Of a stretch of DNA of 64,000 nt, positions 49,288 to 57,227 are shown one piece after another. The position numbers and the translations under genes are program-made. The DNA lies in the NCBI RefSeq assembly GCF_030263895.1, contig NZ_CP127161.1, positions 3,472,001-3,536,000 on the forward strand, given 5' to 3'. The notes under the pieces are model-generated. The model saw only the letters and a list, made by a program, of their open reading frames with translations, made no database searches and was not told where the DNA came from. Positions within the stretch are counted from its first letter, which is position 1, and the number at the start of each line of letters is the position of its first letter. The DNA comes from Proteiniborus sp. MB09-C3. Lineage in GTDB: Bacteria; Bacillota; Clostridia; Tissierellales; Proteiniboraceae.

Positions 49288-50376
49288 TTACTTAGCTTTA
49301 GAGAATGACCATAAATTTCGTATCTGTGGCATCACAACTTGTAAATCCCATTCTTTATTGCTTCTTTCTATGCTATTAGGATCATGAATTAGAAGTTTTC
49401 CATCTGAAGTTATTCCCCTTAATACTATAAAATGTCCAATAGTTGTAAAATCACCTGCTCTTACTGAAGCTATAATTGGTCTTCCATTTTTTAATTCTTT
49501 AGTAATTGCTGCTTCACTTAAGATTATTTCCGATGACTTTAATCCAAAACCCTTTATCCCTTTAGACATTAATAACCAGCTTGTTCCTGCTTCATCTTCA
49601 TAAAAACCTTCCTTTTGACTATAATCTGCTATTACTTTAGGATTTAGCGTAGTATCACCTGTTAACCCAACAGCTACCATAGATAAGCAAACTGGCCCGC
49701 ATCCATTTATCGCAATCATATTATCACCATATTGCCTATAGCCCCACCTTTTATCCCATTGTAAAAATAATGGTATCTTTCCTTTTTCATAATCATCTGA
49801 GATATCAATTTCTCCTTCATAGCTTTGACGATTCAAATAATCTGAAATGAAATCAATTGTTTCAGGATTTTTAATCAATAAATCTAGTATTTCTGTAGGA
49901 TATTCATTGATGTTGTCAATAATAAAGTCTATTTTCTTTACATCTTCTGACATCTGAGAAAGCTGTGAAACATATATTTTTTGTTCTTCAGTATAATCTA
50001 CCATATTCTCAATACTTTCTTTTTTATTGGCATTTAAGTTAGTAAAGTATAACCATATTTTAGAACATATTACGTAAACAATAAGTAGAAGCAATGCAAG
50101 CAGTATTAAGCGTATTATTGGTTTTTTTCTGCTTTTAGCTTTTCTTCTTTGTCTAGTTTGCCTAGTTAAAGCATAATCATTCCTACTGTTAAGCAAATAA
50201 TCTACATTCACATGAAAAGCATCACCTATTGCAATATAATCTTGCATTTTCGGCTGTGATTGCCCTAGTTCCCACTGAATAACTTTCTGCTTTGATACTC
50301 CTATTTTATTTGCAAATTGTTCCTGTGACAAGTTATTTTCTAATCTTAACTTTTCTAGATCTCTTGCAAAATTCAC
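49288..50376 (-). CDS. HTH-transmembrane-C39-like peptidase fusion
   Basis: Three parts are visible. Residues 2-60 are an XRE-type helix-turn-helix (LRLENNLSQEQFANKIGVSKQ, VIQWELGQSQP). Residues about 85-108 form one membrane segment after a very basic stretch. Residues about 195-360 form a C39_2-like papain-fold peptidase with Cys226 in INGCGPVCLS, His315 in TIGHFIVL and Asp332 in IHDPN. DNA binding would be inside and the peptidase outside. GTG at 50374-50376 has GAGGTGA 5 nt upstream; a TTG eight codons earlier does not. A sensor or bacteriocin-processing role is possible. Confidence 0.85.
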   Translation of the reverse strand: MNFARDLEKLRLENNLSQEQFANKIGVSKQKVIQWELGQSQPKMQDYIAIGDAFHVNVDYLLNSRNDYALTRQTRQRRKAKSRKKPIIRLILLALLLLIVYVICSKIWLYFTNLNANKKESIENMVDYTEEQKIYVSQLSQMSEDVKKIDFIIDNINEYPTEILDLLIKNPETIDFISDYLNRQSYEGEIDISDDYEKGKIPLFLQWDKRWGYRQYGDNMIAINGCGPVCLSMVAVGLTGDTTLNPKVIADYSQKEGFYEDEAGTSWLLMSKGIKGFGLKSSEIILSEAAITKELKNGRPIIASVRAGDFTTIGHFIVLRGITSDGKLLIHDPNSIERSNKEWDLQVVMPQIRNLWSFSKAK

Positions 50377-50466
50377 GTCTATCACCTCATAGGTAGCCAA
50401 TGACTCCCAGTATTTATTATAAAGTACTGTGAATCATTGGCATTTATTTTGTTCACTATTACATAT

Positions 50467-52898: not shown

Positions 52899-55409
52899 TT
52901 ACTTCTCCTTAATCATGTTATCGTATTTAAGCATTCCTAAAGGAGATAATTTATTACTTATAATTCCATCTTTTGAGCATATACCATTTTGCGAATGATA
53001 TAAAGGAATGCACGGAGCATCTGCAGATATTATATTTTGTATTTCCTTATATAGCTCTAGCCTTTTAATAGGATTAACAGTATATTTTGCCGTATCAAGG
53101 AGCTTCATTAGCTCCGGATTATCATATCCACTATAATTAGAAGCACTATCTGGTGAGAATAGAGGTTCTATAAACGAAGATGGTTCCATGGCATCTGCAA
53201 TCCAACCATACATGAATATATCATATCCTTTTTGAAGCTTTGTTGATTCAGAATATTCTTTATTAGACACTTGTTTATATTTACAAGTGATACCTATAGC
53301 TTTTAAGTCTTCTTCAATGTACTTAAAAACAGAATTAATATTTTCTCCGCAAAGAATATTCAGAGGCTGATTCAAGTTTACCTTTTCTCTTCTAAGGATT
53401 TCCTTTGCCTTTTCAGGATTATAATCATAACCCCTTACATGATCAGTCGGTACTAGTCCATGTGGAATCATGCACTTTGCCTCAGAGGCAAGCCCGCCTA
53501 GCATTTCATTTATTATCCTTTTCTTATTTATTGCATGGTTAAGAGCTTGTCTTACGCTCTTGCGTGTATAAGGAGAATCAGTATTTTTAGTTTTAAAACC
53601 AATATAGAATGTAGATAGTAAATCTGTAGCCCTATAGTTTCTGTAATACTCAGTATTTCTGATGCTTTCTATATCCTTTTTATTTTTTACTATATAAAAA
53701 TCATATTTTCCTTCAAGAAAGCTATTGAGAGCATTTTCATCTCCGCTTTCTACCTCTACGATGTCACAATATGACCTTCCCCCAATATAATTCTCAAATG
53801 CTGCTAACTTATATACATTATCCTTAAACTCTACTAGTCTGTAAGGACCACAACCTACTAAATTGCCCTTTGCTAACTCTTCTGAATCCATTACAGCACA
53901 ACAATATTGCGATATAGATAATAAGAAACCATTGAAAGGTATAGTCAATTTAATAGATAACCTATGATCATCTAAAAGCTTAATTCCGCTTACCTCTCTA
54001 GCCTTTCCTGACATAAACTCCTTGGCACCTTCTATATAATCTATAAACCAAGTGTTTGGAGATTTTAACTGTGGTGAAAGCATTCTCTCTAGAGAATATT
54101 TTACATCCCTTGCACGAACTTTTTTTCCATTATGGAATGTAGCATCGTTTCTAAGAATAAATACCCAAGTTAGGTTGTCATCTTCTACATACCAGTTCTT
54201 TGCCAAGAGTGGTAGAACATCTCCTGTATCGCTAGTAGCAAGCAGACTAGCATGGATATTGGTCAGCACTCTAATAGTTTCCATAGCATTTCCCACAGCT
54301 GGATCCATAGTGGCTAATGGCTCAGCAATATTACATCTGATAGTTATTGCTTCTTTTTCAGTGTGGACTGTCTCTTCTATTAACTCCTTTGTCATGGAAT
54401 CAAGAAGACTGGAAACTCGTCCCAATGCTGCCAATGCGGCTTTTGTAGATTGAGTGTTCATCAAAGCATTCTCTACCATAGACATAGCCTTATCAGAAGT
54501 TTTCGACATTTCATCGGTAGAAAGAACTATGGCTTCAAGACTAGTTGTTTGAACAGATATTGCCTTGTTAATTTCATTTATGGTTTCAATCATAGCCCGA
54601 ATGGCCTCTTCAATTTTTTTAAATGAAGTGTTGGATTGCTCTGCAATATTTGATCCTTCAGTTATTTTTTCATTACTCTTATCAATGGCATTAATTGTTT
54701 TATTTACATTAGTATTTATATTCTTTATAATTTCAGATATCTCATTAGCTGATTTTGCACTTCTATTTGCTAACTCTTTAACTTCATTTGCTACAACTGC
54801 AAAGCCCCTACCTGCATCACCAGCTCTAGCAGCCTCGATTGCAGCATTTAAAGCTAACAAATTTGTTTGGCTTGCTATGTCTTTAATAATATTTAAAATT
54901 TTATCTATTTGCGCAGTACTAACTCTAAGTCCATTTATTTCCGCTATAACCGATAAAGTGGATTCATTTATTTCCTTCATAGCTTCTATTGTATTATGTA
55001 CAGCGCTACTGCCTTCCTCTACAACACCTAATGTATCCTGTGCTGTTTGATACGACATACTGGCGCTAGCATTTAACTCTTCAGCCATTGCTGAATAATT
55101 GCTGATTTCAGATACTACCTCTGAAATTGACTTTGTTTGTTCTTCTACTCGCTTAGATATTGCCTCTATAACACTTACCAGATTTTCCACTTGACTGTTA
55201 GTGTTTTCTATCCTTATGTCTAGCCTATTTAGTAAATTTTCTTCGTTTTGTTTGATTAAGTTAAGTCTAGAAGATATTATATTTTTATCTTCATATGTAA
55301 TTGGTTGAGCTGCTGGCTCATTTTTCTTTTTCTTAAATCTACCTTTCCATGTGCTGACCAAATCCCATCCCCCCAAATATAGTGACTTCTCAAACACCCC
55401 AAGATTCAT
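52899..55409 (-). CDS. Soluble chemoreceptor fused to an SBP_bac_5-type peptide-binding domain
   Basis: Residues about 45-345 are a methyl-accepting chemotaxis signalling domain with the hairpin tip [20 protein letters not shown] at about 178-197. Residues from about 353 to the end match an oligopeptide/dipeptide-binding protein ([48 protein letters not shown]). No signal peptide, HAMP or membrane segment is visible, so the whole protein should be cytoplasmic, sensing an internal ligand. The first ATG lacks an SD; the TTG at codon 17, behind a G-rich stretch, may be the true start. The domain order, signalling part first, is the reverse of usual receptors. Confidence 0.88.
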
Positions 55410-55512: not shown

Positions 55513-55543
55513 ATAAAAAAACTCTCCTCAAATTGGAGAGTTT
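55513..55543 (-). terminator. Terminator of the RsbW-like gene
   Basis: AAACTCTCC and GGAGAGTTT pair (9 bp, 7-nt loop), followed on the minus strand by seven U. The stem overlaps the last bases of the stop codon. Confidence 0.85.
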
Positions 55544-55928
55544 ATATATATTTTATTGAAACTACTTTATTTTTATCAACATAAAATTCATCGCTGAGGC
55601 CATCTACTATGACAAGACCTCTGCCACAGCATCTAAGCTCTAGAGGGTTATATTGGTTTTTATCGTATATGAAGCCGCAGCCTTCATCAATTACCTCGAT
55701 TCTAATTCGCTTATCATGTATTTCCAAAAACAACTTAATGAACTTATCAGTATCACAATTATTTCCATGTAAAGCGCTATTTACTACGAGTTCATTTAAT
55801 ATAAGCCTTATATCAAATAATAGGGACTCGTCCTTTATTATTTTACATAACTCCTTTAATATATCTTCCATTGTTAATTTTATATTAAATAAGTCGCTTT
55901 TTATTATTTGATTTATTCTAAAATTCAA
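55542..55928 (-). CDS. RsbW/SpoIIAB-like serine kinase (HATPase_c_2)
   Basis: This 128-residue protein has a GHKL ATPase fold: N box LILNELVVNSALHGN, G1 box DEGCGFIYD and G2 box CGRGLVIVD. Family members are anti-sigma kinases or switch-protein kinases of partner-switching systems. No anti-anti-sigma or sigma gene is adjacent, so its partner is elsewhere. TTG start with AGGGGA about 7 nt upstream. It lies just upstream of the chemoreceptor gene but is separated from it by a terminator. Confidence 0.85.
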   Translation of the reverse strand: MNFRINQIIKSDLFNIKLTMEDILKELCKIIKDESLLFDIRLILNELVVNSALHGNNCDTDKFIKLFLEIHDKRIRIEVIDEGCGFIYDKNQYNPLELRCCGRGLVIVDGLSDEFYVDKNKVVSIKYI

Positions 55929-56567: not shown

Positions 56568-57221
56568 TTAGTTCACTACAATGCATTTTAAGTAGAATAT
56601 TTCTCTTTCCTTGCCATAGGCTAGTTTTTTAGCCCATTTTGTGTCTAAGCTCTTAAGCATATTATTATCCCATATATATGCATCCTCAATGTTAATTCCA
56701 TAAGCCATATATTGTTTCTTTAAATGCGTCTTTATAAAATCTATGGACAGTATAGGAAGTTCTCTTTCATGAATCTCTCTTTTTTCATATTTAGTACTAT
56801 AGGTGACACAAATATCTATCTCAGCCTTAACCTTCGAAATTTTTTTAATATTACTTAGCACAATTTCCTCTCCCTTGACAAGCCCATCTCTTAAGCTACC
56901 CCAAGGCAAGTTTATAGTTATTTTATCCGCTGTAGCTGTCATTTCATTTGGTAAATCATCCACATTTCCAACAACAAACAGTATATTATTTAACCCACCC
57001 TTAGAGGGCTTTTTTGTTGTCTTGATAGAGTACTTGCGCATGTTATCTATCGACGAATCTACGCCTATATATAATTCTCCAGCATTACTTTTTGCTCTTT
57101 TATAAATAAACTGTCCATCCCCAGTACCTATATCAATAGCTACTGAGTTATATTGTTTAACTATGTTTTTAAACTCATATTTGTTTATTTCTATTATCTG
57201 ATTCCCTACTAGTATCTTCAT
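56568..57221 (-). CDS. KamB/NpmA-family 16S rRNA (adenine-1408-N1) methyltransferase homologue
   Basis: The protein aligns by eye along its whole length with KamB/NpmA, the enzymes that methylate A1408 of 16S rRNA and give aminoglycoside resistance. Matches are VAIDIGTGDGQFIYKRA (SAM site), GVDSSIDNM, KKPSKGGLNNILFV, INLPWGSLRDG and SLDTKWAKKLAYGKER. Trp107 in PWGSL and Trp196 in TKWAKK correspond to the two tryptophans that hold the target base in NpmA. The second ATG (57219-57221) is 6 nt from GGAGG and is preferred. The SD is buried in a hairpin (57228-57269) behind a consensus promoter. Resistance itself is not demonstrated. Confidence 0.88.
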   Translation of the reverse strand: MKILVGNQIIEINKYEFKNIVKQYNSVAIDIGTGDGQFIYKRAKSNAGELYIGVDSSIDNMRKYSIKTTKKPSKGGLNNILFVVGNVDDLPNEMTATADKITINLPWGSLRDGLVKGEEIVLSNIKKISKVKAEIDICVTYSTKYEKREIHERELPILSIDFIKTHLKKQYMAYGINIEDAYIWDNNMLKSLDTKWAKKLAYGKEREIFYLKCIVVN

Positions 57222-57227
57222 CATAAT

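Follow-up and report, generated by a model that had tools for sequence, protein, structure and literature searches.

Can a solute-binding protein (SBP), an extracytoplasmic fold of transport, serve as the sensor of a chemoreceptor inside the cell? This question is raised by a gene of Proteiniborus sp. MB09-C3, which we analysed within a window of 64,000 nucleotides (the whole stretch of DNA under study, to which all coordinates refer unless stated otherwise). Cytoplasmic chemoreceptors are common and the ligands of most of them are unknown; the sensor family concerned here has dozens of ligand-bound structures. Since the sensor is a 480-residue soluble domain of a structurally well-covered family, the ligand question is directly testable in this case. 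Our analysis makes it rather likely that the gene encodes a soluble cytoplasmic chemoreceptor, in which a C-terminal SBP domain acts as sensor for a cytoplasmic ligand, plausibly a short peptide.

The reading frame in question (52899-55409, minus strand) is open across 836 codons without interruption, and its residue numbers are used throughout. The first-pass annotation had taken the entire frame as the gene. The frame itself is real, its annotated start probably is not: when 47 full-length homologues are aligned, the position of residue 17 is occupied by M (31 sequences), V (7) or L (5), and in 43 of the 47 a start codon lies exactly at this column, nearly always with a Shine-Dalgarno sequence before it, while other possible starts just upstream are variable. 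At the same position, the present gene reads GGGGGG-N7-TTG. Because the start codon falls into one column in 43/47 homologues, we moved the start to the TTG at 55361. The ATG at 55409 is thus probably not the true start, and the gene most likely spans 52899-55361 and encodes 820 aa. Features of the receptor gene and its direct neighbour are compiled in Table 1.

Table 1 Features of the receptor gene and of the gene directly upstream of it (coordinates within the window)
Feature	Coordinates	Strand	Basis
Receptor gene, revised CDS, TTG start, 820 aa	52899..55361	(-)	Start column conserved in homologues and ribosome-binding sites
Shine-Dalgarno-like GGGGGG, 7 bases 5' of TTG	55369..55374	(-)	Sequence; layout common to nearly all homologues
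Short basic N-terminal segment (M)VSTWKGRFK	55332..55361	(-)	Homologue alignment, N-terminus comparison
MCP coiled-coil hairpin, approximately residues 45-353 (Pfam MCPsignal core 54501-55043)	54351..55277	(-)	PF00015; homologue length
Hairpin tip, putative CheA/CheW contact region, 26 residues	54789..54866	(-)	Most conserved region
Family-5 solute-binding domain, residues 357-836 (Pfam SBP_bac_5 core 53139-54218)	52902..54341	(-)	PF00496; AF2 pLDDT 80.5; PDB Z 33-35
Codon of Asp739, equivalent of DppA Asp408 (binds ligand amino end)	53193..53195	(-)	Alignment to 1DPP
HATPase_c_2 (anti-sigma-like) gene, directly upstream of receptor	55542-55928	(-)	Profile match

The domain order initially read from the sequence, an MCP signalling domain followed by an SBP_bac_5-like domain, was confirmed by Pfam far above the respective cut-offs and is kept in the 47 homologues. 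MCPsignal (PF00015) covers residues 123-303 with 146.9 bits (cut-off 34.6; E = 6.9e-43) and SBP_bac_5 (PF00496) covers residues 398-757 with 223.4 bits (cut-off 32.4; E = 6.5e-66); no further domain in the Pfam scan of the receptor exceeded its own cut-off. A sequence search against the PDB aligned residues 53-338 with a Thermotoga soluble receptor fragment (2CH7) and residues 355-809 with 8UPI, the binding protein of a peptide ABC transporter (E = 2e-37). The signalling stretch between residues 60 and 340 has a length of 280-281 residues in 47/47 homologues. The most conserved part of the whole protein is the hairpin tip (mean top-residue frequency 0.77 versus about 0.5 elsewhere), in which the motif EAARAG occurs in approximately 43 of the 47 homologues. 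One match to the consensus of methylation sites was found, a largely conserved stretch of 10 residues (106-115). An alignment with seven membrane MCPs of the host revealed no large indel in the hairpin (approximately residues 60-345), and joint arrays with these receptors therefore appear geometrically possible. The SBP domain is conserved to the same degree as the coiled coil. A full-length AF2 model built with five sequences reached a pLDDT of 44, too poor to place the SBP domain on the hairpin.

Is this receptor located inside the cell? Neither a transmembrane helix nor a signal peptide or lipobox was detected in any of the 47 homologues by hydropathy scan and N-terminus comparison. The top 19-residue hydropathy is 1.28 in the host receptor and 0.92-1.70 across all homologues; on the same scale, the seven membrane MCPs of the host genome reach 2.8-3.5. 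N-termini of secreted SBPs encoded in the host genome mostly score 2.0-2.9; the exception L078 is a truncated reading from an internal Met that skips the signal segment. One secreted SBP gene of the host genome (G000:C1:3238710-3240383) carries an internal TAG inside the matched stretch. As no 19-residue stretch in the homologues tops a hydropathy of 1.7, the receptor is predicted to lack a membrane or signal segment, and the original claim holds in this regard. It had been anticipated that a frameshift or an upstream region might add such a segment. Both were looked for at the receptor gene and neither is present; a missed upstream signal segment is ruled out by the conserved start position. 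After the revised start, the N-terminus of the receptor, (M) followed by 12 residues, is short and basic and resembles the pattern M-[FIL]-x-x-[FW]-[KR]-[KR]-K found in most homologues. N-termini that are both basic and hydrophobic occur in 20/43 receptors compared to 17% among neighbouring genes, and a peripheral membrane contact of this segment is possible. The protein is very probably a functional chemoreceptor with a cytoplasmic location.

A search for the same domain order elsewhere returned the 47 full-length homologues, which are 28-79% identical. The fusion is present in 27/249 genomes and 18/92 sampled genera of the host's order. Within the phylum, it also extends to further families and to another class, in which 11 of 15 genomes carry it. 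Since 47 full-length homologues keep the same order across genera and families, the fusion is not an artefact. No relative was detected in the viral contigs searched, and in two genomes from other phyla, both rich in MCPs and SBPs, the parts occur separately and are never joined. It is highly improbable that the receptor is an ordinary chance fusion of two genes or a pseudogene in decay. A few homologues, in Tissierella sp. P1 and as a second copy in genome G235, are indeed broken; however, the 47 full-length homologues keep order and signalling-domain length down to 28% identity and form one clade, and the explanation is refuted for the receptor family as a whole. The broken copy in Tissierella sp. 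P1 (L013:2831-6002) has interrupted frames, and the one in G235 (G235:C46:16726-18494) is broken by stops. Tandem duplicates of the receptor occur in G535 and G349 (L109, L110), and two diverged paralogues each are found in G198, G231, G236 and G238.

In a quick tree of SBP domains with some long branches, those of the receptors form one clade (SH-aLRT 98), whose sister group consists of two secreted, lipobox-bearing lipoproteins and which stands apart from the host's own SBPs. Following this topology, a single capture of the SBP domain from a secreted lipoprotein SBP fits the data. The captured clade lends support to the initial notion that an extracytoplasmic transport fold was recruited as an intracellular sensor.

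The motility context fits a chemoreceptor. Within the order, CheA is present in 26/27 carriers of the fusion but only in 68/222 non-carriers (Fisher p = 1.6e-11, kinship ignored), and the sole exception among the carriers is an assembly of 84% completeness in which the hit is fragmentary. FlhA was found in 22/22 genomes tested, 21 of which are carriers. The host genome encodes CheA and CheB and contains 18 MCP matches. Sigma-28 promoters upstream of 44 homologues were not above shuffles, save two good sites (L031, L034), and none was found in the window. An ABC permease/ATPase operon is absent from the window, and genes for transporters or peptidases do not recur consistently beside the receptor in the fetched loci; only three of these (Clostridium sp. 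Cult3, Tissierella sp. P1 and G231) have an Opp/Dpp operon close by. Support for the initial suggestion that imported peptides couple diet to motility is weak. The HATPase_c_2 gene directly upstream of the receptor occupies the same position in a congeneric species (L085). Two further genes of the window attracted our attention. At 56568-57224 (minus strand), a gene of the NpmA family of 16S rRNA (adenine-1408 N1) methyltransferases (220.8 bits, cut-off 60) adjoins a lysyl-tRNA-synthetase-like gene and is a candidate for a chromosomal, intrinsic aminoglycoside-resistance methyltransferase. At 49288-50400 (minus strand), a single open reading frame combines HTH_3, a hydrophobic segment and a C39-like peptidase domain, possibly a membrane-bound regulator with a peptidase domain.

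What does the receptor bind? For residues 345-836, AlphaFold2 gave a model (pLDDT 80.5) that is matched best by 8UPI, the glutathione-binding protein GbpA, MppA, DppE, OppA and DppA (Z 33-35 over 450-480 residues). The first four of these reach a Z of about 35, a level at which the alignments span 454-478 residues. NikA, NikZ, AccA, MoaA and a sialic-acid binder match at Z 32-35. Given that nickel and opine binders come within a few Z units of the best matches, the fold alone does not fix the ligand. A more specific hint is provided by Asp739, with D at this column in 46/47 homologues. In GbpA, the equivalent Asp forms a salt bridge with the amino terminus of the ligand. Binding of dipeptides and glutathione is considered to depend critically on this residue, and HbpA2, which has lost it, was regarded as highly unlikely to bind peptides or glutathione (PMC3295651). 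The residue is not universal, being absent from OppA of Clostridium sp. Cult3. It is also present in the secreted sister SBPs and may therefore be inherited rather than selected. Arg355 of DppA, the ligand of the carboxylate, aligns with Ile685, in a column occupied by I, V or L in most homologues. Because of this replacement, a DppA-like dipeptide binding mode is unlikely. With Asp739 kept and Arg355 mostly replaced by Ile, Val or Leu, our best guess is a ligand with a free amino group that is not bound as a DppA-style dipeptide. A C-terminal domain devoid of the ligand pocket had been considered as an objection to the receptor reading; the SBP fold turned out to be complete and the Asp for the amino end is retained. 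We regard binding of a ligand by the SBP domain as likely, and the chances that this ligand is peptide-like as even.

The same receptor might instead respond to a non-peptide ligand, e.g. a metal chelate, a sugar acid, an opine, an amino acid or another cytoplasmic metabolite, which we consider possible but the less probable case. Family-5 SBPs bind many ligand classes, as the high scores of the nickel, opine and sialic-acid binders illustrate, Arg355 of DppA is not kept, and the family-5 regulator SgrR answers glucose-phosphate stress and is a reported glutamate binder (PMC13060122). On the other hand, the amino-binding Asp is nearly invariant, the best sequence and fold matches are mainly binders of peptides and glutathione, and members of SBP_bac_5 in model bacteria are predicted to bind peptides almost exclusively (PMC9602780). 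It appears improbable that the SBP domain senses a protein partner, such as a signalling protein or the side of an Opp/Dpp transporter that faces the cytoplasm, or serves as a structural module. SBP surfaces do dock onto permeases and receptor domains (PMC9602780) and the carboxylate Arg of DppA is lost here, but the domain has a complete fold and equals the coiled coil in conservation, no transporter is linked, and the SBPs of ABC importers dock outside the membrane, unlike this predicted cytoplasmic domain.

How would a cytoplasmic receptor with a small-molecule sensor work? As the fusion is kept in dozens of related species, its carriers probably steer by small molecules inside the cell. 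The ligand would be a small molecule already present in the cytoplasm; within this presumed class, a short peptide or some other compound bearing a free alpha-amino group is our best guess, e.g. a peptide that was imported or a fragment of cell-wall peptide. Binding in the SBP cleft would most likely close the two lobes, and closure would pull on the C-arm end of the dimeric coiled-coil hairpin. The pulled hairpin would then change the activity of the CheA kinase, presumably coupled at the far tip, and this change would bias flagellar motion, the direction of the response being likewise presumed. More tentatively, and with considerable doubt, the receptors could form a conserved family that steers by the intracellular level of peptides, as set by net uptake and breakdown or by cell-wall turnover, in which the basic N-terminus may hold the receptor at the membrane beside the array. 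If the domain is peptide-binding, the consequences are twofold: (i) peptide-fermenting clostridia would perform metabolism-dependent chemotaxis toward peptides, and (ii) the receptor would join SgrR as a clear example of how a binding protein of transport was 'domesticated' for sensing inside the cell.

We found no description of the combination of MCP and SBP_bac_5 in the literature searched, which covered few subscription journals. According to a survey of model bacteria, the Pfam profiles for SBPs also pick up the sensor domains of signalling proteins in the cytosol (PMC9602780). Closest in architecture are receptors of the TlpD/McpA type with a C-terminal CZB domain, which are likewise soluble MCPs without a membrane segment, carry the sensor where the C-arm of the hairpin ends and have a conserved kinase-contact tip. 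Their sensor is a zinc-binding four-helix bundle, whereas the present receptor has no CZB and no PAS domain and only SBP_bac_5, approximately 480 residues, after the hairpin. The hairpin of TlpD is about half as long as that of Tsr (PMC12871147), in contrast to the membrane-receptor length found here; structures of TlpD show that its C-terminal domain is coupled to the tip across a distance of more than 140 A (PMC12871147). SgrR and DsvR (HTH plus SBP_bac_5) also employ a family-5 SBP as C-terminal sensor of a cytoplasmic regulator (PMC13060122), but their output is a DNA-binding HTH instead of a chemotaxis hairpin. The receptor has a weak match to the SgrR model (34 bits) that does not extend beyond its SBP part, and Pfam and NCBIfam scans revealed no HTH family apart from this match. 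With OppA, DppA, MppA, DppE and GbpA, the receptor shares the complete fold (Z 33-35) and the amino-binding Asp; unlike them, it is fused to an MCP and has no signal peptide, lipobox, cognate permease operon or equivalent of DppA Arg355. Cooperation of an SBP fold with a chemoreceptor is also known from membrane chemoreceptors that are activated by solute-loaded SBPs. In these systems, a free-standing extracytoplasmic SBP docks on an external receptor domain (PMC9602780), whereas in the receptor described here it is covalently attached and predicted to reside inside the cell.
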